64,000 nucleotides of DNA from Psychrilyobacter piezotolerans. GTDB lineage: Bacteria; Fusobacteriota; Fusobacteriia; Fusobacteriales; Fusobacteriaceae. The stretch covers positions 1 through 64,000 of the forward strand of contig NZ_QUAJ01000006.1 in NCBI RefSeq assembly GCF_003391055.1, written 5' to 3'. The number at the start of each line of letters is the position of its first letter. The first letter of the stretch is position 1. Below are positions 10,484-58,240 of the stretch, piece by piece. The notes beneath the pieces are model-generated. The model saw only the letters and a list, made by a program, of their open reading frames with translations, ran no database searches and was not told where the DNA came from. A program made the translations under genes and the position numbers.

Positions 10484-10528
10484 AAAAAAAATCCTCCTAC
10501 AGAACTAGATCTTTCTAGGTGCAGGAGG
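10484..10528 (-). terminator. Terminator after hepT; copy A of a 45-bp perfect repeat
   Basis: Imperfect hairpin (CCTCCT...AGGAGG outer stem, CTAGA/TCTAG inner stem) followed on the minus strand by a run of U. The whole 45-bp element is identical to 11228-11272. The two copies bracket the mntA-hepT module. Confidence 0.85.
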
Positions 10529-11227: not shown

Positions 11228-11272
11228 AAAAAAAATCCTCCTACAGAACTAGATCTTTCTAGGTGCAGGAGG
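11228..11272 (-). terminator. Terminator after the acidic-protein gene; copy B of the 45-bp repeat
   Basis: Identical in all 45 bases to 10484-10528, with the same minus-strand U-tract. It lies downstream of the minus-strand gene at 11306-11527. The spacing between copies is 744 bp. Confidence 0.85.
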
Positions 11273-15041: not shown

Positions 15042-15605
15042 ATGAAAAAAATATTATTAATATTAATAATTATTATAAGTTTAATGAGTTATGGGAAATC
15101 AATTAATGAAGAGCAATTACAAAACAGAAATGGTGTGTATTATAAAATAAATAAAAAAACTCCATACACAGGAACAGTTATTGGCTATTACGAAAATGGA
15201 CAAATCGAACGTAAAAGAAATTATAAAGATGGATTAAAAAATGGGGAAACGACTGCCTATTACGAAAATGGGCAAATCGAATCTAAATTAAATTATAAAG
15301 ATGGATTAAAAGATGGAGAAGTTATCGCCTATTACGAAAATGGGCAAATCGAATCTAAAGAAAATTATAAAGACGGGAAAGAAGACGGGGAAAGGGTTGT
15401 CTATTATGAAAATGGACAAACCAAATCTAAAGAAAATTATAAAGATGGATTAAAAAATGGGGAAAGGATTTTCTATTACAATAATGGACAAGCCAAATCT
15501 AAAGAAAATTACAAAGATGGAAAACTAAATGGGGAAGTTATTAACTATTACGAAAACGGGCAAATCAAATCTAAATTAAATTATAAAGATGGACAAATTG
15601 AATAG
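15042..15605 (+). CDS. Secreted MORN-repeat protein (YwqK-like)
   Basis: A 187-residue exported protein: signal peptide (KKILLILIIIISLMSYG), a short lead, then six near-identical 24-residue repeats. They start at residues 49, 73, 97, 121, 145 and 169 with consensus YYENGQIxSKxNYKDGxxxGE (MORN variant repeat). The DNA repeats with a 72-bp period and high identity, so copy number could change by slippage or recombination. Such proteins are abundant in Fusobacteria and are often annotated YwqK-family antitoxin, but no function is established. No toxin gene is adjacent. Confidence 0.85.
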   Translation: MKKILLILIIIISLMSYGKSINEEQLQNRNGVYYKINKKTPYTGTVIGYYENGQIERKRNYKDGLKNGETTAYYENGQIESKLNYKDGLKDGEVIAYYENGQIESKENYKDGKEDGERVVYYENGQTKSKENYKDGLKNGERIFYYNNGQAKSKENYKDGKLNGEVINYYENGQIKSKLNYKDGQIE

Positions 15606-29721: not shown

Positions 29722-30234
29722 ATGAATAAAATAATAATTATTATACTGATATTAACCCTGCTTTCTGCCTGCAGCAGCAAAAAAGAAATAAATTTAAAAG
29801 ATCATTCACTGGAAGAATTTTCCCTTGAAAAATATCTGGGAGAATGGGTGGAAGTTGCCAGAACAGACAACAAATTTGAGAGGGGACTCACAAAGGTAAC
29901 TGCAAACTATTTAAAAGAAGGAAATAAGATTATAGCCGTCAACAGGGGATGGAGCGAAGAAAAACAAAAATGGAGTATGAGTAGGGGGTATATAAAAGAA
30001 ACTCCTCAATTAGGCAGATTAAAGGTATCTTTTTTCAGGCCATTTTATGGGAGCTATAACGTTCTTCATATCGATAAAGACTATAACTATGCTCTGGTTG
30101 GAGGAGATACAAGTAAATATTTATGGGTATTAAGGAGAAGGGATGTAGAGATGTCAGAAAAATTATTGGAAGAATATTTAAAGAAAGCCAAAAACTTGGG
30201 CTATGACACAGAAGGAATGATTTTTATGGAATAG
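29722..30234 (+). CDS. blc: Outer-membrane lipocalin Blc
   Basis: A 170-residue bacterial lipocalin lipoprotein. The signal peptide ends in the lipobox LLSAC (Cys17 lipidated). Structural motif I is KYLGEWVEVAR, then VNRGW, GRLKVSFFRPFYGSYNVLHIDKDYNYALVG (quoted in part as YNVLHIDKDYNYALVGG) and YLWVLRR, which are diagnostic. Family members bind lysophospholipids or fatty acids at the outer membrane and are stress- or stationary-phase-related. It is monocistronic and ends at copy 1 of the 48-bp terminator repeat. Confidence 0.93.
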   Translation: MNKIIIIILILTLLSACSSKKEINLKDHSLEEFSLEKYLGEWVEVARTDNKFERGLTKVTANYLKEGNKIIAVNRGWSEEKQKWSMSRGYIKETPQLGRLKVSFFRPFYGSYNVLHIDKDYNYALVGGDTSKYLWVLRRRDVEMSEKLLEEYLKKAKNLGYDTEGMIFME

Positions 30235-30239
30235 TAATA

Positions 30240-30287
30240 AAAAGAGAGCTGTTACAGCTCTCTTTTTACTGGTTAGAAATATAATTT
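30240..30287. repeat. 48-bp perfect repeat, copy 1 (contains terminator)
   Basis: Identical to 40421-40468. It holds the hairpin AGAGAGCTG-TTA-CAGCTCTCT with A-tracts and T-tracts on both sides (bidirectional terminator for blc + and manA -), plus 20 bp beyond it (ACTGGTTAGAAATATAATTT). Left boundary of the mannoside island. Confidence 0.95.
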
Positions 30288-30327
30288 ACACGTAATTTGG
30301 GATAGACTACTTTTTAATATTTTATTT

Positions 30328-31305
30328 TTACATAAATGTTTTTAAAATTTCTAATTCCCCTTCTATCTCTATATTTAATTTAGGAGGGATATACCAAGTT
30401 TCGCCTTTTTTTATGGAATAGGCCACACCATCACAATTCAGATTTCCCTCTCCTTCCAAGATGGAATATATCATAAATGAATCTCTATTTGTATCTTCAA
30501 ACTTTTTCTCTAACAGAAATTTATCTATATTAAAATATTTACCCCTAATAATCTCCTGTTTAGTTCCCCCATTTACTTCTACATTCTTTCTATTTTGATC
30601 GGTATTAATTTGGGGGATCGTCTCATAATCTATAACTTCCATAGCCTTGTCTAAATGAAGTTCACGAAGTTCACCATCAATCAATCTATCAAAATCATAA
30701 ATTCTATAGGTTATATCGGAATTTTGCTGTACCTCACAAATTAATATACTCCCCTCTAAACTTGCGTGAACTAATCCAGGAGTGACGTTTATAAAATCTC
30801 CTTTTTTTATAGAAATGATATTAAATAAATCATTAAAATTTTTATTTTTAGTTTTTTCCATAAATAATTTTTTAGTCATTCCTTCTTTAAATCCCATAAT
30901 TAACTTGGCATCAGAACTAGCTTCCATTATATACCATGACTCTGATTTTCCAAATTCTCCCTCTACCCGGAGGGCATATTCATCATTTGGATGCACTTGA
31001 ACAGATAACCTGTCGTTGATATCCAGATATTTTATAAGTAAAGGAAATTTCCCCCCATATTTATGGTAGACTTTTTCTCCTACAAAATTACCTTTATAAT
31101 CTGAAAATAACTCCTCTAAGGTCTTCCCCTCTAATCTGCCATTTTCAATAACACTCATTTCATTTTTACGGGAACTTACCTCCCAAGATTCCCCATAAGA
31201 ATCCTCTGTAGGTAAAGTCATTTCAAAACTTTTCTCAAAACCTCTTCCTCCCCATACTTTTTCTTTAAAAACTTTTTTAAATTTAAATGGGTATAGTCTT
31301 TCCAT
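30328..31305 (-). CDS. manA: Mannose-6-phosphate isomerase, type I short form
   Basis: Cytosolic zinc enzyme interconverting mannose-6-P and fructose-6-P, so feeding glycolysis. At 325 residues it is of the Bacillus ManA length. Motifs: KVWGGRGFEKSF near the start, LDINDRLSVQVHPND (zinc ligands), GKSESWYIM and GDFINVTPGLVHASLEG, with a cupin C-terminal half. Last gene of the minus-strand island operon. Its place after an alpha-mannosidase and a PTS fits catabolism of a mannoside. Confidence 0.95.
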   Translation of the reverse strand: MERLYPFKFKKVFKEKVWGGRGFEKSFEMTLPTEDSYGESWEVSSRKNEMSVIENGRLEGKTLEELFSDYKGNFVGEKVYHKYGGKFPLLIKYLDINDRLSVQVHPNDEYALRVEGEFGKSESWYIMEASSDAKLIMGFKEGMTKKLFMEKTKNKNFNDLFNIISIKKGDFINVTPGLVHASLEGSILICEVQQNSDITYRIYDFDRLIDGELRELHLDKAMEVIDYETIPQINTDQNRKNVEVNGGTKQEIIRGKYFNIDKFLLEKKFEDTNRDSFMIYSILEGEGNLNCDGVAYSIKKGETWYIPPKLNIEIEGELEILKTFM

Positions 31306-31382
31306 AACAGCTCCTTTTTTTGAATATAAAAATTAAAACTATATTTTAATTTTTATTCCATATTTTTTTTATTGAATTTTTT

Positions 31383-32027
31383 TCATTTTTGCAGGGGTGT
31401 AAAAATAATTTTTTTAGGATAGTGGAGTCCATTTCTTGCGAGGGGCATCATATAATGGATTATACTACCCATAAAAAATGAACTTAATACAGTACCTACC
31501 CCAAGATTTGAAAAATCTTTTAATTTAAAACCAATTACCAGAGCAATTATAAGAGCACTGACATCTGCAGTAGTTTTTATCTTACGATAAGATATTTCTG
31601 TCGTATCTGCAATGGAAAAAACAAAAGTTTCAGTATGATTTTTGGGAAGTTTAGTAACAAACATCATAGCACATCCTATTCCTACAAGAATAAGCCCAGT
31701 AAAAAGGATAAAAATTTTTATAATGAAAGATTCTGATTTAAGGACTTGTATTAACGGATAGTAGCAAAAATCAATAAGTTTCCCCAATATTATAGAAACT
31801 ATAAAAGCCTTATAATTTAAGAATTCTTTTTTTAATATAGCAGCTACAATAAGAAGTATAAAGGCTATTATTATAAGCCAATTTCCTACTTTTATACCTG
31901 TAAGTTTATAGAGGTTCTCTACCAAGGCATCCCAACCGCCTGCCCCAAGGTCACTTATAAGAGTAAATGTTATACCCAGAGCCAATAGGAATAAACCAAT
32001 TAAATAATATGTTACTTTTAAAAACAA
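31383..32027 (-). CDS. YczE/YitT-like membrane protein
   Basis: A 214-residue protein with five or six hydrophobic helices: LGAGGWDALVENL early, then GIGCAMMFVTKLP and a conserved C-terminal GTVLSSFFMGSIIHYMMP. It matches the COG2364 (YczE/YyaS) family of uncharacterised inner-membrane proteins, sometimes linked to transport or regulation. It lies in the mannoside operon between the secreted hydrolases and manA, so it may move a product of that pathway. Confidence 0.75.
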   Translation of the reverse strand: MFLKVTYYLIGLFLLALGITFTLISDLGAGGWDALVENLYKLTGIKVGNWLIIIAFILLIVAAILKKEFLNYKAFIVSIILGKLIDFCYYPLIQVLKSESFIIKIFILFTGLILVGIGCAMMFVTKLPKNHTETFVFSIADTTEISYRKIKTTADVSALIIALVIGFKLKDFSNLGVGTVLSSFFMGSIIHYMMPLARNGLHYPKKIIFTPLQK

Positions 32028-32062
32028 TTTTTTCTCCTTTAATTATCGTAATATTTTATGTA

Positions 32063-32914
32063 TTAATTTTTTAACAATTTAATTTTAGCTATAATAGGTC
32101 CGTGATCAGAGAGATATATACCATCTTCAATTATTTGAAGTTGCTCATAACTATTTACTTGAATATTGTCACTTACAAAGATATAATCAATTTCAGATTT
32201 TTTGTCTTTTCCAAATCCATTATATGTATAATTGAATCCTTTAGGTGGAGTTTGTGTACTAAATTTAGCATCATTATAATCATTTGTAAAAGTTTCATAA
32301 CTATTTTTATTATTTCTTTCAAAGTTAAGATCTCCCATAATTAGAATAGGTTCATCGTTTAAATGGGATATTTTTTTTGCTTTTTTTACAATTAGCTGGG
32401 CACTTTTTTCTCGGGATACTATACCTTTATGATCAAAGTGAGTATTAAATACTAAAATTCTTTTACCTGTTTTCTTTTCTTGAAGCCTTACCCAGGTTGC
32501 TATTCTAACACGTGAAGTATCCCAACTAATACTTGCTACTATTTCAGGAGTTTCAGATAACCAAAATGTGCCATTATCTATTACAGTAAACTTATCTTTT
32601 TTATAAAAAATACTGGTATGTTCTCCATAATGAATACCATCATCTCTTCCAATTCCTGTCCGACCATATTCAGGTAATTCATCACTTAAAAACAACACTT
32701 GGCCTCCTCTATCTTCTTGAAAACCTATGATATCTGAATTAGATATCTTTAAAAATGATACAAGTTTATTACTTCTAGCCGGCCAATTATGTATTCCATC
32801 GGCAGCTATAGTACTATTTTTACTATTTCTAATATTAAAACTCATAATATTAATTGACTCTCCGAAACTTAGAACACTTAACAATAAACTTAAAATTACA
32901 ATTGTTTTTTTCAT
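32063..32914 (-). CDS. Exported endonuclease/exonuclease/phosphatase-family hydrolase
   Basis: A 283-residue secreted enzyme with an N-terminal signal peptide and an EEP fold: MSFNIR, IIGFQED (catalytic Glu), NTHFDHKG, MGDLNFE, EIDYIFVS and SDHGPI (catalytic Asp-His). Such enzymes cut phosphodiesters in lipids, sugars or nucleic acids. In this operon a phospholipid or phosphoglycan substrate outside the cytoplasm seems more likely than DNA. Its signal-peptide DNA is nearly the same as that of the next gene. Confidence 0.85.
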   Translation of the reverse strand: MKKTIVILSLLLSVLSFGESINIMSFNIRNSKNSTIAADGIHNWPARSNKLVSFLKISNSDIIGFQEDRGGQVLFLSDELPEYGRTGIGRDDGIHYGEHTSIFYKKDKFTVIDNGTFWLSETPEIVASISWDTSRVRIATWVRLQEKKTGKRILVFNTHFDHKGIVSREKSAQLIVKKAKKISHLNDEPILIMGDLNFERNNKNSYETFTNDYNDAKFSTQTPPKGFNYTYNGFGKDKKSEIDYIFVSDNIQVNSYEQLQIIEDGIYLSDHGPIIAKIKLLKN

Positions 32915-32934
32915 TCAATCCCCCTAATTTAAAA
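32854..32934 (-). repeat. Duplicated ribosome-site/signal-peptide cassette, copy 1
   Basis: About 81 bp covering the ribosome site (TTAGGGGGATT on the minus strand), start codon and signal-peptide codons of the EEP gene; close to 90 percent identical to 33869-33950. Confidence 0.8.
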
Positions 32935-32951
32935 AAAATAAATTTGCTTAT

Positions 32952-33929
32952 TTAATCTTCTAGTATAAACTCTCTTAATTCTTGTAGATTACCGGTGTTG
33001 ATCATAACACTTTTTAATGGTTTTAACAGGTTCCACATATCTATATTATCTGGTGAATTCCAAAACCTAATTAGTACACCGTGTTCATGACCTATTTCAT
33101 TTGCTAAATTCATCTGATTTATGAAGTAGTCAGAGAATGTTACCTTATTTTCAGCTAAATATTTATAAAGAAGTTTGTAATTTTTGCTGAGTGCTACGGA
33201 AGCATTTTCAGTATTTACTTCATTTAACCTTTTTTCTTTACTAAGAGGAGCATTAAATTCACTTATTATCTCCTTGTATAATTTCTCGTCTTTAAAATTA
33301 AATGATTTTTTAGGATCATTATATTTCCAAAGGCCGCTACTAACAATAGGAGTTACTTTAGCATTTGTAAAATAATTTTTCCAGTTATCGTTGCTATAAA
33401 TATCACCAAAGCGTCCATCCTTAGTAGAATATCTTACTGAATCAGGACTAGTATAATCTACGTTGGTAAATATTGTTACAGCTCCTTCTTTTATGGTTCC
33501 ATCAGGAAGATATTGAGTGAAAATATGACTGTATTTTCCAGCAACCTCCTGTAGTAAGTCCCATGTTTCCTTATTTGTAGTTTTTAAATCAACATGCAGA
33601 AACACTTTTTCATCCTTATTGTTATATACTACTCCTTTATTGGCAGCAATAAATTTTGTTAAAGGTTTTAAATACATATCCTCTAAAGTTCTATCGGGAG
33701 TAATTTCCTCTTCATCATGAGCAACATAAAGATTAGGAACCCCCTTACTATCAGTTCTAAGCCAGATATCGGCTTCAATACTGGACATCCCATTTTTCAA
33801 TGCCAAAATAAGTGGTTGCTCTTGTAAATAATCATTATGTGAATGGGCATTAGGCATATAATATTTAGTTGATTCTCCGAAACTTAGAACACTTAACAAT
33901 AAATTTAAAACTATAATTATTTTTTTCAT
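32952..33929 (-). CDS. Exported PI-PLC/GDPD-like phosphodiesterase
   Basis: A 325-residue secreted TIM-barrel protein of the phosphatidylinositol-PLC/glycerophosphodiesterase superfamily. After the signal peptide (ending SFGES) come NAHSHNDYLQEQPL, SIEADIWL, LYVAHDEE and VFLHVDLKT, which carry the two His and acidic metal ligands. The mature end is GVLIRFWNSPDN. It is likely to release a phosphorylated headgroup such as glycerol-phosphate or a mannosyl-glycerol-phosphate. Second secreted hydrolase of the island. Confidence 0.85.
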   Translation of the reverse strand: MKKIIIVLNLLLSVLSFGESTKYYMPNAHSHNDYLQEQPLILALKNGMSSIEADIWLRTDSKGVPNLYVAHDEEEITPDRTLEDMYLKPLTKFIAANKGVVYNNKDEKVFLHVDLKTTNKETWDLLQEVAGKYSHIFTQYLPDGTIKEGAVTIFTNVDYTSPDSVRYSTKDGRFGDIYSNDNWKNYFTNAKVTPIVSSGLWKYNDPKKSFNFKDEKLYKEIISEFNAPLSKEKRLNEVNTENASVALSKNYKLLYKYLAENKVTFSDYFINQMNLANEIGHEHGVLIRFWNSPDNIDMWNLLKPLKSVMINTGNLQELREFILED

Positions 33930-33950
33930 TTAATCCCCCTAATTTTAAAA
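33869..33950 (-). repeat. Duplicated ribosome-site/signal-peptide cassette, copy 2
   Basis: Second copy, giving the leader of the GDPD-like gene. Both encode ...LLLSVLSFGES. Similarity stops just after the signal peptide. Confidence 0.8.
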
Positions 33951-33960
33951 TATTAAATTA

Positions 33961-36525
33961 TTAATACGTTATATTTATATGATCATAAGCCAGTATTTTA
34001 TCTTTTTTTATTGTTTTCCCCAGTGCATTAACTATCCGTTTTTTAATCTCTTTAGAAATTTCAATTTGATTTTCAGTAGGATTATAGAGTCTTAATATTA
34101 CTTTATCTTCTACTAAATCTATTCCGCTGAATGTGAGATCACTTTCAAAAATCATAAGGGATTCTTCTGTATCCATTTCACATTTTTCCAGCCAAATGTC
34201 GAAGTTATCAATCCTATGAATTTCTTTTTCTAACTCTTGTTTTTGGTATAATAATGGATCATTTAAATATCTTTCAGTTAACTGGCTTATTCTTTTTTCA
34301 TCGATTTCTTTGTTCAACCCTATGGAAAATTCAAAAGTTAACTTCTTTTGCAGCTGTCCGTCTTTAGCCACCATAACTCTTCCTGAGGCTCTGCCAGGCC
34401 TGTGATGTAAATCATTCTTACCAATATACCCTACAGACCTGAATAATGTTATGGCAACCCCGTCTTCTACAAGTTGATATTCTTTTACTCCTTTTCCAAA
34501 GCAGGTAAAGCTTTTATCCTCATTGTAGATAGACACACTATTTTGCATAGGCTCTAAATTTATTGGAAATTCTGTATAACCTTCCCAATTATTCATGAGA
34601 CTATGATTGTTTTCTCTTTTGATAAATCCAAAAGGAAGATCGGCTACTGCAAATTCTGTATTTATACCAAGATTAAATACCACCCTTAACCTATGATCTA
34701 AAATAGAATTATCTATATCTACTTTGAATCTGACAAGTTCATCAGATAAAACAATTGAAAAATCAATTATTAACTCTTTAGTTTCATTTGAACGCCCTGT
34801 TCTATCTTTTTTTAATGAAACCGGAATCCTTGTTTTAGCCTGAAGATTCATAATCTTTTTATAATTTGATACCTTGACACTTTTTAAGATAAAGTCTTTT
34901 ATTATTATTTCTTTTTCGTCTCTAAGTGAAGAGTAATCATAAAGATCCCCATCATCACTCATATTCTCAAATGAAAGAAAGTCTTTTATTATGATATTGT
35001 TAACCTTATCCTCTAAATTTAATTTTCCATCTTCAAATATAATCTTATATAAATTATTTTCAATCTGGTCTATTTCTGTTTCTGATAGTTTATCTGATTC
35101 CAGACAATCATAGCTAACTTTAAATATCTTATAAGATAAAGGTTTCATCTCAACTTTAGTCATGTCAATATCATTAATATAATAATATTCATCTACACCA
35201 GTTTCTACTTCACCTTCAGGAGTCAATAGTACCTGTCTTGGTTTCTGCTTCTTCTCCTGGTTATTTATTGTAAACTTCATTTCTTTTCCTTCAAAATCAG
35301 TTATTTTAAAGTTTTCCTTATCTGTAATTATCTTATTTCCAGTAGATGTTATTTCTTCTTCGTTTGAACCATTTACAAGAATAAAGATGTCTTTTTCCTC
35401 AAGGTTATGTAGCATAGTTTTAGCTATAAGATTAAATAAAGAATGAGCTATCTGCTGAGCCTGTTGGCACCTCATTATTACATCTTTATTAGTTGCATCA
35501 CTATTACATCCTCCCATACTGTCATGGGCATGAGATTCTAAAAGAAGTTTCCAGGCTTTGTCCAACATCTCAATTGGAGCACTGATTCCTTTCTTTTTAG
35601 CAAAAGCCATTAGTGGTTCTACTTCTCTTATAAGAAATTGCTCTACATCATGGTTAATTTTCTTTATATCATACCTTGATGATGTAATACTTTTATGTAC
35701 CCTTGAATATCTTGGATATCTAAATTCACCTTCATAATTATTATTTGGGTTTATACTATCCATATATTTTTCATAAGAACTTAAGATATAATTATCTTTT
35801 CCTATGGAATTAACTTTTTCAACAAATTTATCAAAATCAGAGTCAATACTTACCTGATCTCCACCTATTGGTCCCATTATATTTTCATCGGAAGATATTG
35901 ATTTTATTTTTTCGAGCAGTTTAAAAGTCTCTATATAAAGCTGTTGTTCGTCAAAATTTCTATGTCTTCCACCCCTTTCAGGGTGGGCTAAAGAATATCC
36001 AAAAGGCATAGCTGCTGTTTTTATTCTATCTCCATTTAATGCAGACCAATTCATCTCTACACTACCCATATATTTATCATCATATCCTCTTCTTATGATG
36101 ATATTATTGATATCAAAAGATTTTGTTATCTGAGGAAGCTGGGCACTGGCACCAAAAGTATCTGGAAGATAGAGTACATCCATACTATGTCCCATATTTT
36201 CAGCATAGGTCTTTCCATATTTTAAGTTTCTAAAAACTGATTCACAACCAATATTAAATAGATCTGGCTGTGTATGCCAAGGTCCTATGAACAGTCTTTT
36301 TTCTTGAATAAGTTTTTTTACTCTATTCAAGTCTTTTCCTCTTAGATTAAGGTAATCTTCCATTAAAGAGCTTTGGCCATCTAAATGATAGTTCAGCTTG
36401 GAATTTTCTTCTAAGGCACCAAATATTTCTTTGAATGATTTTAATGCTAAGACCTGAGTATCAAGAGTGGTAAAATACCACTCTCTGTCCCAATGTGTGT
36501 GTGCTATCATATGTATATTTTTCAA
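33961..36525 (-). CDS. GH38 alpha-mannosidase
   Basis: An 854-residue cytosolic (no signal peptide) glycoside hydrolase family 38 enzyme. The zinc site begins in AHTHWDREW; the nucleophile is Asp122 in LYLPDTFGASAQLPQ; HAHDSMGG gives another ligand. The long beta-sandwich C-terminal half is normal. With a PTS next to it, the likely substrate is an incoming 6-phospho-mannoside, as for E. coli MngB with mannosyl-glycerate. It lies 13 nt after the PTS gene. Confidence 0.93.
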   Translation of the reverse strand: MKNIHMIAHTHWDREWYFTTLDTQVLALKSFKEIFGALEENSKLNYHLDGQSSLMEDYLNLRGKDLNRVKKLIQEKRLFIGPWHTQPDLFNIGCESVFRNLKYGKTYAENMGHSMDVLYLPDTFGASAQLPQITKSFDINNIIIRRGYDDKYMGSVEMNWSALNGDRIKTAAMPFGYSLAHPERGGRHRNFDEQQLYIETFKLLEKIKSISSDENIMGPIGGDQVSIDSDFDKFVEKVNSIGKDNYILSSYEKYMDSINPNNNYEGEFRYPRYSRVHKSITSSRYDIKKINHDVEQFLIREVEPLMAFAKKKGISAPIEMLDKAWKLLLESHAHDSMGGCNSDATNKDVIMRCQQAQQIAHSLFNLIAKTMLHNLEEKDIFILVNGSNEEEITSTGNKIITDKENFKITDFEGKEMKFTINNQEKKQKPRQVLLTPEGEVETGVDEYYYINDIDMTKVEMKPLSYKIFKVSYDCLESDKLSETEIDQIENNLYKIIFEDGKLNLEDKVNNIIIKDFLSFENMSDDGDLYDYSSLRDEKEIIIKDFILKSVKVSNYKKIMNLQAKTRIPVSLKKDRTGRSNETKELIIDFSIVLSDELVRFKVDIDNSILDHRLRVVFNLGINTEFAVADLPFGFIKRENNHSLMNNWEGYTEFPINLEPMQNSVSIYNEDKSFTCFGKGVKEYQLVEDGVAITLFRSVGYIGKNDLHHRPGRASGRVMVAKDGQLQKKLTFEFSIGLNKEIDEKRISQLTERYLNDPLLYQKQELEKEIHRIDNFDIWLEKCEMDTEESLMIFESDLTFSGIDLVEDKVILRLYNPTENQIEISKEIKKRIVNALGKTIKKDKILAYDHINITY

Positions 36526-36538
36526 TTTTTTTCTCCCT

Positions 36539-38164
36539 TTAATATAATATTTCTCTTACATCTCCAGCAATTGTCTGTACTTTAACACCATAAATTATCT
36601 GAAGTGCATTTCCTTTACGAACAATTCCTGATGCTTTTAATAATCCCTTCCATGTATGATCTTCAGATACTTTATTTGGATCTTTTACTATTACTCTTAG
36701 TCTAGAAATACAGTTGTCTAAGCTTTCTATATTTTCTTTCCCACCTAGATTCATTATGATATCATTAGCTAGTCTAGCTCCTTGAAATTGTGGCTCTAAT
36801 TTTTTTCCTTCACCTGTTTTCTCTAAATAATCCTTTTTGCTATAAAGTTTCACTTCATCTTCATCTTCTCTTCCCGGAGTCTTAACATTGTATTTTAAGA
36901 TTAAGAATCTAAATGCAAAGTAATAAGCTGTGAAAAATAGAGGTACTAAGAAAAAGTATGGAACAATATATAATTTTTGAAATTGGAATATCTGAGGTAA
37001 CCAATCTTTAATACTACTTCCATATATTGATATTTTAAAGTATTCAGCTAACGTAAATGCTAAACCTGTAAGAGGAACATGTACTAAATAGAATAACCAA
37101 GGAGCTACAAACAGAAATGTAAACTCTAAAGGTTCAGTTATTCCAAACAAGATCATAGTTAATACTGCTGGCATTAATATTCCAAGAAGTTTTGTTCTTT
37201 GTTCAGGCTTTGCTGTATGGTATATAGCCAGCGCTGCTCCTGGTAAAGACCCTAAATGTAAGATAGCTCTTCCAGAGTTAAGGTTTCTGGTGATTAACTT
37301 TGTCATTTCAGATGAACCTAATTGTGCCATTTGAATACCAGAAGTTCCCACTACTAAATTACCATCCACTATAGCTGTTCCTCCAAGCTCAGTCCATCTT
37401 AGCGGGATTGTAACTAAGTGATGAAGTCCCAATGGCAGTAAAGATTTATCTAGCATAGCCCATAGATATGTCCCGAATAGACCTGTTCTGGATATAAAGT
37501 TAGCTAGTTCCGCTAAGGCCAATCCAAACGTAGGCCATACATAGTAGCATATAATTCCTGCAAAAGATCCAGCAACTAATGATAGGATAGGGACAGTCCT
37601 TGTTCCCGCAAAGAAAGAAAGAACCATGGGTAATTTTACATTATAAAAACGATTATGTATTTTTTGTACAATTAATCCTATGATTAATCCTCCAAATATA
37701 CCGGTTCTATAGGAAAAATATCCTAAAACATTAGTATAAAGAGAGTTCCATTTAGTTGCAGTGATTATATCCATACCTCTGTTTTCAACTAAAAATGTTT
37801 TTGCAGTTGTTACAGCTGAAATATCATTTATTTTAAACATAGATGATATTATTGCATTAAATGCAATATATGATAACACCGCTGAGAATGCTGCCCATCC
37901 TTGTTCTTTTTTAGACATCCCGAATGCCACACCTGCAGCATATAATATTGGAAGATTAGCAAATACTACCTTACCAATAGATTTCATTATAAAAAATATA
38001 TTATATATTGTGCTCCCGCTATATATAATGTCTCCTAATCCCAGTGCATTGACTGTCCCTTGAGAAGTAAATGCTCCTCCTAATCCCATAAATACACTTC
38101 CTATTGCCATAACGGCCAAAGGCATGAGCATCGTTCTCCCTAGTGTTTGTAGCGTCTCTTTCAT
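36539..38164 (-). CDS. PTS glucose/glucoside-family EIICB permease
   Basis: A 541-residue inner-membrane sugar permease. EIIC (about 1-430) has the GLC-family GITEPLEFTFLF and LGLHHLVTIP motifs. EIIB (about 460-541) has the phosphorylated Cys485 in ESLDNCISRLR. There is no EIIA here, so a shared EIIA-Glc must donate phosphate. Notable: the known mannosyl-glycerate PTS (MngA) is of the fructose family, so this pairing with a GH38 enzyme is different. It abuts the PHP gene (1-nt gap). Confidence 0.93.
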   Translation of the reverse strand: MKETLQTLGRTMLMPLAVMAIGSVFMGLGGAFTSQGTVNALGLGDIIYSGSTIYNIFFIMKSIGKVVFANLPILYAAGVAFGMSKKEQGWAAFSAVLSYIAFNAIISSMFKINDISAVTTAKTFLVENRGMDIITATKWNSLYTNVLGYFSYRTGIFGGLIIGLIVQKIHNRFYNVKLPMVLSFFAGTRTVPILSLVAGSFAGIICYYVWPTFGLALAELANFISRTGLFGTYLWAMLDKSLLPLGLHHLVTIPLRWTELGGTAIVDGNLVVGTSGIQMAQLGSSEMTKLITRNLNSGRAILHLGSLPGAALAIYHTAKPEQRTKLLGILMPAVLTMILFGITEPLEFTFLFVAPWLFYLVHVPLTGLAFTLAEYFKISIYGSSIKDWLPQIFQFQKLYIVPYFFLVPLFFTAYYFAFRFLILKYNVKTPGREDEDEVKLYSKKDYLEKTGEGKKLEPQFQGARLANDIIMNLGGKENIESLDNCISRLRVIVKDPNKVSEDHTWKGLLKASGIVRKGNALQIIYGVKVQTIAGDVREILY

Positions 38165-38165
38165 T

Positions 38166-39512
38166 TTATTCCCCCTTATTTATATGATTTTCTACATCGT
38201 ACCAACTTATATACTCTACAATTCCAACTTTATTATAAATTGGATTCAAAAAATATCGTATCCCACCATCTAAATTATGCCCTTCAACTCTAAAGTTTTC
38301 TCCTTTGTCTAATTTTATTTTTATTTTAAATTCTGAATTTTTTTCAGAATAAATTTTTTTCCCATTTAAAATACCATGCCATAGAACCTCCTCTTTCGAT
38401 TTGACAAAATAAGTTATCTCTTCATCTATCTGGTCACCTAAAATATAATTTTTTTCTATAGAATAAATCTTAATATCTATCTCATCGTCAAAAGTTATAT
38501 AGTTCCTTCCATATTTTAATGCTTCCAATATTTTTTTTTGATTTAATCCTTCCTCTAAATATGTGGCATTTTTAGGGATTCCAACTGTTGTCTTATACCC
38601 TTTTATACCCTTATGTGTATCACTTCCAGCTACTCCAAAAATCTTATATCCCTTACTCCATAAATAATCGAAAGCTAAAATAGATTTATTTATCATCTCT
38701 TCTTTTTCTTTATAGGGACAATTTATGAGTTCAATTGTATGAAAAAGTTCCATGGGTAAATTGTATTTTAATCCTGTACTATTTTGAAATGGATGATTTA
38801 ATGAGATCAGACTCTCTTTTTTGCCTTTCACCTCAAATAAAATTCTTTTTACATTTTCACAAGGATCCAGATTTTCTTTAAATAACTCTGCATAATCTAT
38901 AAGATCTACTCCATATATATTGAAATGCCCTTTATTGTCCAAGGTCAACTCTGTTCCTGAAAAAAGATTCCAATCCCTATTAATCCCTTTGTTAGATATG
39001 ACATTGTGGTCTGTTATAAATAAATAATTCAATTTTTTTTCTTTATATCCATTGTAGACCTCTAATTGAGATATTTTTCCATCTGAAAAATTAGTGTGGC
39101 AATGCAATTCTCCAAAATACCATCCTTTTTCTCCTTTTGTTGAGACTTCTTGAATTTTCCTATAATCATCCCCATGGTAAATTTTCATATCCTCTAGTAT
39201 TTCTATAGAATATTCTCCTCGACAGTCATAATTTTTTATGAGAGTTAATGTCCATTCCCCTTTATCCAGATCCCCTTCTTTAAATAAATTCGAAGTTCTA
39301 TTAAATTCTTTAAAAATAGAATAAACTCTATTGTAGGTTTTTAAGGTAAATGTCCCCCTTATTCTACCCTTTGGATCTTTCAATACGGCGATTACATGTT
39401 CAAATATACAGTTTTTTAAAAAAATAGTTATATTTTCCTTGGCATCCTCCACATGAAACCTGTGTATAATTTTTTCTGGAAACTTCGATAAAAATACTCC
39501 TTCTATTAACAT
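38166..39512 (-). CDS. PHP-domain metallohydrolase (CehA/McbA-like)
   Basis: A 448-residue cytosolic protein. The N-terminal beta-sandwich (about 1-125) has no clear function. The PHP domain (about 130-380) starts GELHCHTNFSDGK and has TDHNVIS, SGTELT and GSDTHKG, giving a full metal site. The family hydrolyses phospho- or carbamoyl esters. First gene of the island operon, divergent from the RpiR regulator. It could remove a phosphate or act on a phosphodiester in the imported compound. Confidence 0.85.
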   Translation of the reverse strand: MLIEGVFLSKFPEKIIHRFHVEDAKENITIFLKNCIFEHVIAVLKDPKGRIRGTFTLKTYNRVYSIFKEFNRTSNLFKEGDLDKGEWTLTLIKNYDCRGEYSIEILEDMKIYHGDDYRKIQEVSTKGEKGWYFGELHCHTNFSDGKISQLEVYNGYKEKKLNYLFITDHNVISNKGINRDWNLFSGTELTLDNKGHFNIYGVDLIDYAELFKENLDPCENVKRILFEVKGKKESLISLNHPFQNSTGLKYNLPMELFHTIELINCPYKEKEEMINKSILAFDYLWSKGYKIFGVAGSDTHKGIKGYKTTVGIPKNATYLEEGLNQKKILEALKYGRNYITFDDEIDIKIYSIEKNYILGDQIDEEITYFVKSKEEVLWHGILNGKKIYSEKNSEFKIKIKLDKGENFRVEGHNLDGGIRYFLNPIYNKVGIVEYISWYDVENHINKGE

Positions 39513-39545
39513 GTTTTTCTCCTTTTTTATTTTGATTTTTTAATG

Positions 39546-39568
39546 TATAATTACAATTATGAATTATA
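39546..39568. promoter_or_regulatory. Palindrome between the island operon and its regulator
   Basis: TATAATT (39546-39552) and AATTATA (39562-39568) form a perfect 7-bp inverted repeat in the 71-bp divergent gap. A probable operator for the RpiR-type protein, overlapping likely promoters of both genes. Confidence 0.5.
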
Positions 39569-39583
39569 AAGGTGTGAATTATT

Positions 39584-40297
39584 ATGAGTATCAGTATACG
39601 TAAATTAGTTAGTAAATATTCTTTGACTCAATCTGAAGAGATTGTTTTAACTTATATCTTAGAAAATTTAGATGATGTTTTAGACTATGGGGTTCGTAAA
39701 GTTGCTAAAGATTGTTTTTGTTCTACATCTGTAGTCATGCATCTTGCTAAAAAAATGAACTTAAAAGGTTTTGTGGATATGGTTTATCATTTTAAAAGCT
39801 TAACTTCCAAAAATCATGAAAATCATGAATTTATAAATTATTTTGAAAAAAACCATACTAAACTGGAAGAGTTAAAAAAAATCTTAGAAACATCTTCTAA
39901 TGAAGCTATCTACATAATGGGGAATGGATTTTCAAAAATTATAAGCCGTTATTTTCAAGAGCGCTTAACAAAGCATGGATATCTTGCATTTGTAAATGAA
40001 CATTTAGAACTTTTAGAAACACCTCATACAAAGTCTCCTTTAGCTATTATTATTTCTGAATCTGGAGAAACGAAGTATTCTGTAAAGCAATTAAACAAAT
40101 GTATAAAAAATGATATAAAAGTTATCTCTTTTACATGTAATATTGAAAATACTATACAACAAAATTCTTTTCTGAATTTATCTATTGAAAACAGTGCTTA
40201 TATTAAATCTTTAAATACTGATTTTAATTGTTTTTTTTCAAATTTAATTATGACAATAGATGCTCTTATGTCCACTTTGGAATCAAAATGCTTATAA
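39584..40297 (+). CDS. RpiR/MurR-family transcriptional regulator
   Basis: A 237-residue regulator. N-terminal HTH_6 domain (about 1-75) with VRKVAKDCFCSTSVVMHLAKKMNLKGF (recognition helix, quoted in part as CSTSVVMHLAKKMNLKG). C-terminal SIS phosphosugar-binding domain (about 95-225) with YIMGNGFS and AIIISESGET. It probably senses a mannose- or hexose-phosphate and controls the divergent operon. It ends just before copy 2 of the 48-bp repeat. Confidence 0.88.
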   Translation: MSISIRKLVSKYSLTQSEEIVLTYILENLDDVLDYGVRKVAKDCFCSTSVVMHLAKKMNLKGFVDMVYHFKSLTSKNHENHEFINYFEKNHTKLEELKKILETSSNEAIYIMGNGFSKIISRYFQERLTKHGYLAFVNEHLELLETPHTKSPLAIIISESGETKYSVKQLNKCIKNDIKVISFTCNIENTIQQNSFLNLSIENSAYIKSLNTDFNCFFSNLIMTIDALMSTLESKCL

Positions 40298-40420
40298 ATT
40301 AACTATATATCATATATCTACCCTTGTAAATAGTTTTAAAAATTAAAAAAAAGTTACATATATTGTAACCTGTTACAATATATGTATCGATATATCAAAT
40401 TTAATAAAAAATTATAAAAT

Positions 40421-40468
40421 AAAAGAGAGCTGTTACAGCTCTCTTTTTACTGGTTAGAAATATAATTT
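40421..40468. repeat. 48-bp perfect repeat, copy 2 (contains terminator)
   Basis: Identical to 30240-30287. Acts as bidirectional terminator for rpiR-like (+) and EamA (-). Right boundary of the island; the copies are 10,181 bp apart. Confidence 0.95.
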
Positions 40469-40482
40469 TAGTCCTTTTAATT

Positions 40483-41331
40483 TTACCCTTTTCTTTTTAA
40501 AATTAGATAGGTGGCCGATAAAATCATCCCCCCTCCTATAATTGTTGGGATTCCTGGCATTTCATTAAAAAATATTCCTCCTAATATAACAGCTCCCAAT
40601 GGATCTATATAGGATAAAACTCCCACATGCTGAACTTTTATTCTTTTTATTCCTTCAAAATAGAGGTTTAATGCTATACATGTGTGGATGACCCCCACTA
40701 TAATCATTAAGATTAAAGACAGGGTATTGAATCTCTTCATATTTTTGATCACAGGAAAAAAGATCAAGGAGGAGATTCCCATTTGAAATAAACTGATTTT
40801 ATGGGATGGAACATCTTTCAATTTTTTTACACTGATTGTAACTAAGGCGTAAAAAAATGCCGCGATCAACCCATACCCCACACCTGTCATGCTAAAATTA
40901 CTGCCTTTTTGAGACCCCATCAGGGTCATTAAAATTATCCCCGAAAAGCTTAGTCCAACAGCAATTAAAGTTCTTTTATTGATACTTTCCTTTAACAGAA
41001 AAACAGAAAGTATAGTTACGATAACAGGGGCTACATAGTAACTCATTGTTGCTGAAGCAATAGTTGTAACTTTAATTGCCCGAAAAAAGAAAAACCAATT
41101 GAGAGCAATAAATAATCCGCTCATAGAAAGGATTAAATATTCTTTCAAAGACAATTTATTGCTTGTGCTATCTTTCTTTTTTGTAAATTTTAATATTCCA
41201 AGTACTATAAATGCTATAAATACTCTGAAAAAGACTATAACCTCTGGCGGCTGATCAATATATCGTACAAATATCCCGATACTTCCCCATATAATCATTG
41301 ATGATATCATCAAAAGATATCCTATATTCAT
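40483..41331 (-). CDS. EamA/DMT-family permease
   Basis: A 282-residue ten-helix inner-membrane carrier with two EamA repeats. It starts IGYLLMISSMIIWGSIGIFVRY and has SATMSYYVAPVIVTIL in the first repeat and VLSYIDPLGAVILGGIFFNE in the second, a typical family ending. Export substrate unknown. It lies outside the island and converges on the repeat that also ends rpiR. AGGAG upstream of ATG 41331. Confidence 0.9.
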   Translation of the reverse strand: MNIGYLLMISSMIIWGSIGIFVRYIDQPPEVIVFFRVFIAFIVLGILKFTKKKDSTSNKLSLKEYLILSMSGLFIALNWFFFFRAIKVTTIASATMSYYVAPVIVTILSVFLLKESINKRTLIAVGLSFSGIILMTLMGSQKGSNFSMTGVGYGLIAAFFYALVTISVKKLKDVPSHKISLFQMGISSLIFFPVIKNMKRFNTLSLILMIIVGVIHTCIALNLYFEGIKRIKVQHVGVLSYIDPLGAVILGGIFFNEMPGIPTIIGGGMILSATYLILKRKG

Positions 41332-41597
41332 AATGCTGCTCCTCCCAAACTATATATTTAGGCATACTGTACCACAAATTTAAACTTTAAGCTATATTTT
41401 TCCCCTACTGATTTAAAGTATCGAGAAGAATTTTTAGGATAATGTTATCTACGGTAAATATAAAGTAGGTGTGTCAGATATAGTCTATAAAGAATATCCT
41501 TATTTGAAGTTTTTAATCTATTCTGTTATTATGATAATAAAGTTATAATATTTTGTTTAAAGTAAAAATATATATAATCCAGGGAATAATTCTGAAA
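41332..41597. promoter_or_regulatory. Region upstream of the riboswitch, with putative promoter
   Basis: TATAAT at 41544-41549 with a weak -35 is placed to start RNA about 45 nt before the aptamer. Nothing else is seen in 41332-41520. Confidence 0.4.
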
Positions 41598-41674
41598 AAG
41601 GCAGAGCAGGGGAAATTTTGTGACGCAAAACTAAAGGGTCTAAGTCTCTTAAGATATGACAGCCAGTTGCCGCA
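41598..41674 (+). ncRNA. Cyclic-di-GMP-I (GEMM) riboswitch aptamer
   Basis: The conserved core is present in order: GGCA (P1 5'), a small stem capped by a GAAA tetraloop (CAGGG-GAAA-TTTTG), GTGACGCAAA, AAAGGGTCTAAG, a variable arm, and GACAGCCAGTTGCCG closing P1 with TGCC. This order and these bases match the GEMM-I class, which binds c-di-GMP. It precedes an HD-GYP gene by about 95 nt and is followed by a terminator. Confidence 0.9.
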
Positions 41675-58143: not shown

Positions 58144-58240
58144 TGGCGGAAGTATGTGGGAATCGAACCCACCCATGACGACTTAACGCCAAAACTCGGT
58201 TTTGAAGACCGGTAGGCACACCAGTTACCTATCTACTTCC
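58144..58240 (-). tRNA. selC: tRNA-Sec (UCA anticodon)
   Basis: 97 nt including an encoded 3' CCA. The acceptor GGAAGTA pairs with the 3' TACTTCC. The anticodon loop CTTCAAA carries TCA, which reads UGA. A long extra arm (GTTTTGGCG...TCGTCATG region) and an extended acceptor/T-stem (GGTGGGTTCGATTCCCAC) mark a selenocysteine tRNA. A -10 TATAAT lies just upstream (58247-58252, minus). The genome therefore probably makes selenoproteins. Confidence 0.95.

Follow-up and report, generated by a model that had tools for sequence, protein, structure and literature searches.

A 10.13-kb accessory carbohydrate island, probably inserted at the terminator shared by blc and eamA in Psychrilyobacter piezotolerans

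RESULTS

The window, a 64-kb stretch of DNA from the studied genome (G000), contains a gene island flanked by two direct repeats of 48 bp. On the left, a gene for a Blc-like lipocalin lipoprotein (29722 to 30234, + strand; Lipocalin_2, 1e-29) runs into repeat copy 1 (30240 to 30287), and on the right, a gene for an EamA/DMT transporter (40483 to 41331, - strand; EamA, 4e-43) runs into repeat copy 2 (40421 to 40468). The 10,133 bp between the copies (30288 to 40420) hold eight genes, a regulator gene and a divergent operon of seven. The regulator belongs to the RpiR family (HTH_6 plus SIS; 39584 to 40297, + strand). The operon, entirely on the - strand, begins with a CehA/McbA-type PHP metallohydrolase (38166 to 39512), which exceeded the cut-off of 80 for NF038032 with 122.5 bits, and a PTS EIIBC protein of the glucose/maltose superfamily lacking an EIIA domain (36539 to 38164; PTS_EIIC, 1.5e-54; PTS_EIIB, 3.5e-14). 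It continues with a GH38 alpha-mannosidase (33961 to 36525; Glyco_hydro_38N, 8e-36), for which the nearest model is that of mannosylglycerate hydrolase, PRK09819.

Two secreted proteins follow. The first (32952 to 33929) has a signal-peptide-like N terminus and matched no Pfam or NCBIfam family; its motifs presumably resemble those of PI-PLC/GDPD-type phosphodiesterases. The second is an endonuclease/exonuclease/phosphatase-fold (EEP) hydrolase (32063 to 32914; Exo_endo_phos, 1.5e-13). The operon ends with a YczE/YitT-like membrane protein (DUF6198; 31383 to 32027) and with manA (30328 to 31305), encoding a class I mannose-6-phosphate isomerase that scored 168 bits, over the cut-off, against TIGR00218 and was placed by a tree as an accessory paralog. 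The EEP hydrolase and the YczE-like protein are 61% and 52% identical, respectively, to paralogs encoded at the C19 mannoside locus. Within the signal-peptide regions of the two adjoining secreted genes, 30 bases are identical (32859 to 32888 and 33874 to 33903), suggesting that a leader was copied recently. At the right end of the island, 3' of rpiR, lies a perfect AT-rich inverted repeat with 14-bp arms (40357 to 40386). It folds, is unique in its own genome and is absent from 60 relatives; a hairpin, an operator and a recombination site are candidate roles.

The first-pass annotation had described the interior as one coherent carbohydrate locus and the island as a mannoside island. The description as one locus is largely correct; profile matches place PTS EIIBC, GH38 and ManA together in the island. 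The substrate is less certain than the word mannoside implies, because the yczE, EEP, phosphodiesterase-like and CehA/McbA genes are also present. From these gene assignments, we infer that the cargo may be a PTS/GH38/ManA module for a mannoside-phosphate. Secreted phosphodiesterase-like enzymes would release the mannoside, which PTS EIIBC would import and phosphorylate; GH38 would then split the phosphorylated mannoside to yield mannose-6-phosphate, and ManA would convert this to fructose-6-phosphate, with RpiR as the likely regulator. The proposed scheme resembles the mng operon for mannosylglycerate in E. coli, in which PTS import is likewise followed by a GH38 enzyme that produces mannose-6-phosphate. 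However, the island has a glucose-superfamily EIIBC, an RpiR regulator and additional CehA and secreted hydrolases, and its GH38 protein scored 614 bits against PRK09819, the MngB equivalog model, for which the cut-off is 1138.

Repeat comparison across the window showed that the two copies agree at 48 of 48 positions, with a mismatch directly outside on either side. The 48-mer consists of a perfect hairpin, AAAAGAGAGCTG-TTA-CAGCTCTCTTTTT, and a further 20 bp. The hairpin occupies the first 28 bp, has A and T runs on its sides and folds strongly on both strands in both copies (z of -3.3 to -6.4), and its structure is consistent with a bidirectional terminator. Copy 1 would thus end blc (+) and manA (-), and copy 2 would end rpiR (+) and eamA (-). 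The gene calls agree with the gene ends that had been assigned in the first reading, which had also reported the identical pair with its hairpin and 20-bp tail.

An exact 48-bp pair would be expected by chance about 4e-18 times in 64 kb. Dispersal of the 48-mer as a common genome-wide terminator would have undercut the proposed duplication, but a search allowing up to 3 mismatches found only the two copies in the genome (3,358,809 bases in 86 contigs) and none in 60 relatives, which rules that explanation out. The bare 26-bp terminator, its own reverse-complement reading aside, also occurs in the genome only at these two places. Beside the repeat, no clearly degraded homology was found past the 48 bp. 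A longer, degraded duplication was considered and rejected, as 40 nt of intergenic DNA past copy 1 had no significant likeness to the native right flank. The sequence past copy 1 and the native right flank do have TTTTTAAAATT in common; it falls within the conserved 3' end of manA (EILKTF) and was taken as a coincidence.

The first-pass annotation had inferred an ancestor in which blc and eamA converged on a single terminator, and had proposed that relatives be searched for it. Three genomes of the same genus (G005, G006 and G007) were compared, of which G005 was uninformative for the site, with blc and eamA on separate contigs. The proposed arrangement is present in both G006 and G007, where blc and eamA are directly convergent across a gap of about 100 to 120 bp that contains the same bidirectional terminator once, in diverged form. 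In G007, Blc is 84% identical and EamA 92% identical to the G000 proteins, and the gap is about 120 bp. In G006, the corresponding values are 78% (over residues 63 to 169), 93% and about 100 bp. When the window was compared by Blast with the 80 kb surrounding each of these sites, the flanks were collinear and a segment of about 10.15 kb was confined to G000. The arrangement with the island is therefore not common to all relatives, although the two empty sites may amount to one observation if G006 and G007 are sisters.

Blast also matched the single terminator of G006 and G007 to both repeat copies in G000. Relative to these genomes, native sequence continues to the left of copy 1, on the blc side, and to the right of copy 2, on the eamA side. 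Since the outer flank of each copy continues native sequence, the native terminator is the ancestor of both. Both copies align to it with the 20-bp tail included, which indicates that the second one was made from the target rather than brought in by the island as an unrelated terminator.

None of the 48 sites differs between the two copies in G000, whereas 7 substitutions and one indel separate them from the G007 ortholog. The duplication thus postdates the species split, barring homogenization of the copies. An island older than the split of G000 and G007 would be expected to show about 7 differences between its copies, and the Poisson chance of seeing none, without gene conversion, is about 0.001. 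In a control, the remaining indels of the syntenic block, counting those 900 bp or longer, had direct repeats of 8 to 13 bp at their boundaries. As these reach 13 bp at most, local variation does not usually leave a repeat of 48 bp. The same empty site would follow if the island were ancestral and had been precisely excised from G006 and G007, possibly sisters, by recombination between the repeats. This is improbable, because the copies stayed identical at a locus that has diverged as described and because GH38 was found nowhere in G006 or G007. The zero divergence between the copies favors gain in the G000 lineage over loss in the relatives, in line with the original proposal that the island entered the site, and gain is the reading we prefer from the comparison of G000 with G006 and G007.

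The base composition of the island, which the first-pass annotation had proposed comparing with that outside, departs only mildly from the rest of the genome. Its GC content is 29.8%, similar to that of the C19 locus (29.7%), whereas the sampled genome averages 33.6% +/- 2.2; the island is AT-richer than the genome, yet lies only 1.7 sd under the mean, at the 7.6th percentile. In the tree, the island manA is sister to the manA of the C19 mannoside locus (support, 90/83). The manA copies of C12, G004, G006 and G007 sit apart from this pair and look like housekeeping orthologs. This placement puts the island manA, together with the C19 copy, in an accessory clade at genus level.

Neither the PTS nor the GH38 gene has a close relative in the phylum, as judged by a phylum search. 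The nearest relative of the PTS protein, at 50% identity, is in another family of the phylum, and a scan of the genome contigs found one relative, at 31%. Genomes of that other family carry rpiR and CehA together with the 50% identical PTS gene, with GH38 replaced by another glycosidase-like gene, which suggests a module with an exchangeable glycosidase. As for a donor, viral contigs gave no exact 33-mer match and a plasmid scan gave no long match; across the genomes and scans covered, we found no second insertion at the blc/eamA site, no circle and no donor locus. The island is accessory DNA, mildly AT-rich and probably of near origin.

DISCUSSION

On balance, we consider it likely that a 10.13-kb accessory island for mannoside use entered the bidirectional terminator serving both blc and eamA, and that the joining step was most likely a crossover with a circular or tandem molecule. 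Such a molecule would carry the island and one copy of the terminator. A single crossover with the chromosome through the shared 48 bp, driven by homologous recombination or by a recombinase supplied in trans, as in cis-mobilizable elements (CIMEs), would leave the target at both ends, and the reverse crossover would excise the island cleanly and restore the empty site. Because the 48-bp target stands at both ends, a terminator remains for each of the four converging transcripts, and all genes stay intact. The first-pass annotation had noted that no integrase was present, and profile searches indeed found neither an integrase nor a transposase among the eight island genes. By inspection, the island ends have no matching terminal inverted repeats. 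A DDE transposon is ruled out, given the lack of both transposase and such repeats and a duplication of 48 bp rather than a short one.

The repeats could instead be the attL and attR of a decayed, CIME-like integrative element, with the terminator as att core and an integrase that was lost or acts in trans. The 48 bp falls within the range of 8 to 60 bp typical of tyrosine-recombinase att repeats (PMC5704250), intergenic transcription signals have been proposed as targets and some IMEs are found there (PMC7563491), and ten tyrosine-recombinase (integrase-domain) candidates occur elsewhere in the genome. However, the island retains no integrase remnant or transfer gene, its recognizable genes being metabolic, regulatory or membrane genes, and with only two 48-mer copies the genome holds no integrase-bearing element with such an att site; we regard this origin as possible but doubtful. 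One-sided natural transformation by homology-facilitated illegitimate recombination, homologous at eamA and illegitimate at blc, from a donor carrying island, terminator and eamA in that order, would need no enzyme of its own, and it would suit a syntenic block rich in indels and a manA of genus-level origin. It is unlikely, since the illegitimate joint would have to land by chance just past the terminator and the origin of the arrangement would only be shifted to an unseen donor. Finally, such a layout could come from a short-read assembler if a separate circular molecule, made up of the island and a single terminator, were fused with the chromosome across the 48 bp common to both; the assembly is a draft of 86 contigs. 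We give this explanation very little weight, because the circle could have gained its perfect terminator copy only through the same history of recombination and because plasmid functions were not seen among the island genes.

Among known systems, the island stands nearest to CIMEs and to minimal mobile elements. It is a good example of an island that lacks an integrase and has a target duplication the size of a terminator. As in a CIME, cargo without integration or transfer genes lies between direct repeats as long as att sites, exact over 48 bp, at a site that is empty and single-copy in relatives. It differs in that no ICE or IME remnant was found and in that what is repeated is a bidirectional terminator between genes rather than a known 3' end of a gene. 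In the minimal mobile elements of Neisseria, varying cassettes lie between two conserved genes (PMC3082526). The island is likewise a cassette of whole genes between two conserved genes, present in some genomes only and devoid of mobility genes, but minimal mobile elements have alternative cassettes and recombine in flanking DNA, whereas the island ends in a 48-bp target duplication. At the blc/eamA site we saw the island in G000, nothing in G006 and G007, and no alternative cassette. In Campylobacter, repeat-bounded circular intermediates form without an enzyme of their own, as in the pcp-bounded cfr(C) cassettes (PMC10770853). These illustrate that repeat-bounded cargo can circularize and re-enter at homologous sequence, but their repeats are genes, whereas that of the island is 48 bp and its circle is only proposed.

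The insertion is precise, recent and without an insertion enzyme of its own; it is instructive, but no new kind of system. It provides a before-and-after pair for the chromosomal entry of a metabolic island without mobility genes, with an exact footprint of 48 bp. A two-way terminator duplicated at entry explains how a foreign operon can be added without disturbing adjoining transcription.

It is conceivable, though we think it quite unlikely, that throughout the genus the terminators between convergent genes are true integration sites for integrase-less cargo, with each insertion duplicating the terminator. If this were true, the duplicated terminator would insulate the newcomer and its neighbors, the pair would permit clean exchange between cells, and the C19 locus and a cassette at 10.5 to 11.3 kb, both with repeated terminators at their ends, would count as additional examples. 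If terminators proved to be preferred, the landing sites of integrase-less islands would follow a simple rule.

Neither of these two candidates held as independent evidence. The C19 locus has a fructose-type PTS along with GH38, EEP, yczE and manA genes, the last four related to those of the island, and a 34-nt terminator repeat marks its two ends (L084:5087-5120 and 15202-15235, spaced 10,115 bp apart). It was rejected as a second case, as the 34-nt repeat is a dispersed terminator family with many copies in the genus. The locus has no empty site, because G006 and G007 carry two other genes there. Within the window, a 45-bp identical terminator-like repeat (10484 to 10528 and 11228 to 11272) surrounds two small genes that look, from their motifs, like a nucleotidyltransferase/HEPN toxin-antitoxin pair; no clean empty site was recovered for this cassette, and related terminators occur elsewhere. 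A 57-bp repeat on C6 (83663 and 94269) was also rejected as an island boundary, being part of a dispersed intergenic element; the survey of repeats spanned about 406 kb. That element, of about 150 bp and containing CCGGCGGGCAAACAGCC, lies at C6 83540 to 83800 and 94150 to 94410, near ilv and parAB-like genes. A dispersed family of bidirectional terminators of about 50 bp, AAAGACCTCC...GGAGGTCTTT, occurs at many loci in G000 to G007 (for example, C6:133119, 134878 and 137651 and C15:1083).

Other features were seen in the neighborhood of the island. At 41396 to 41502 of the window, G006 and G007 carry 2 to 3 kb, with patatin-like and HxlR-like genes, that is missing in G000, and a c-di-GMP-I riboswitch lies just downstream of this site (41590 to 41674). 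Farther to the right, the window contains a selenocysteine tRNA gene (58144 to 58240).
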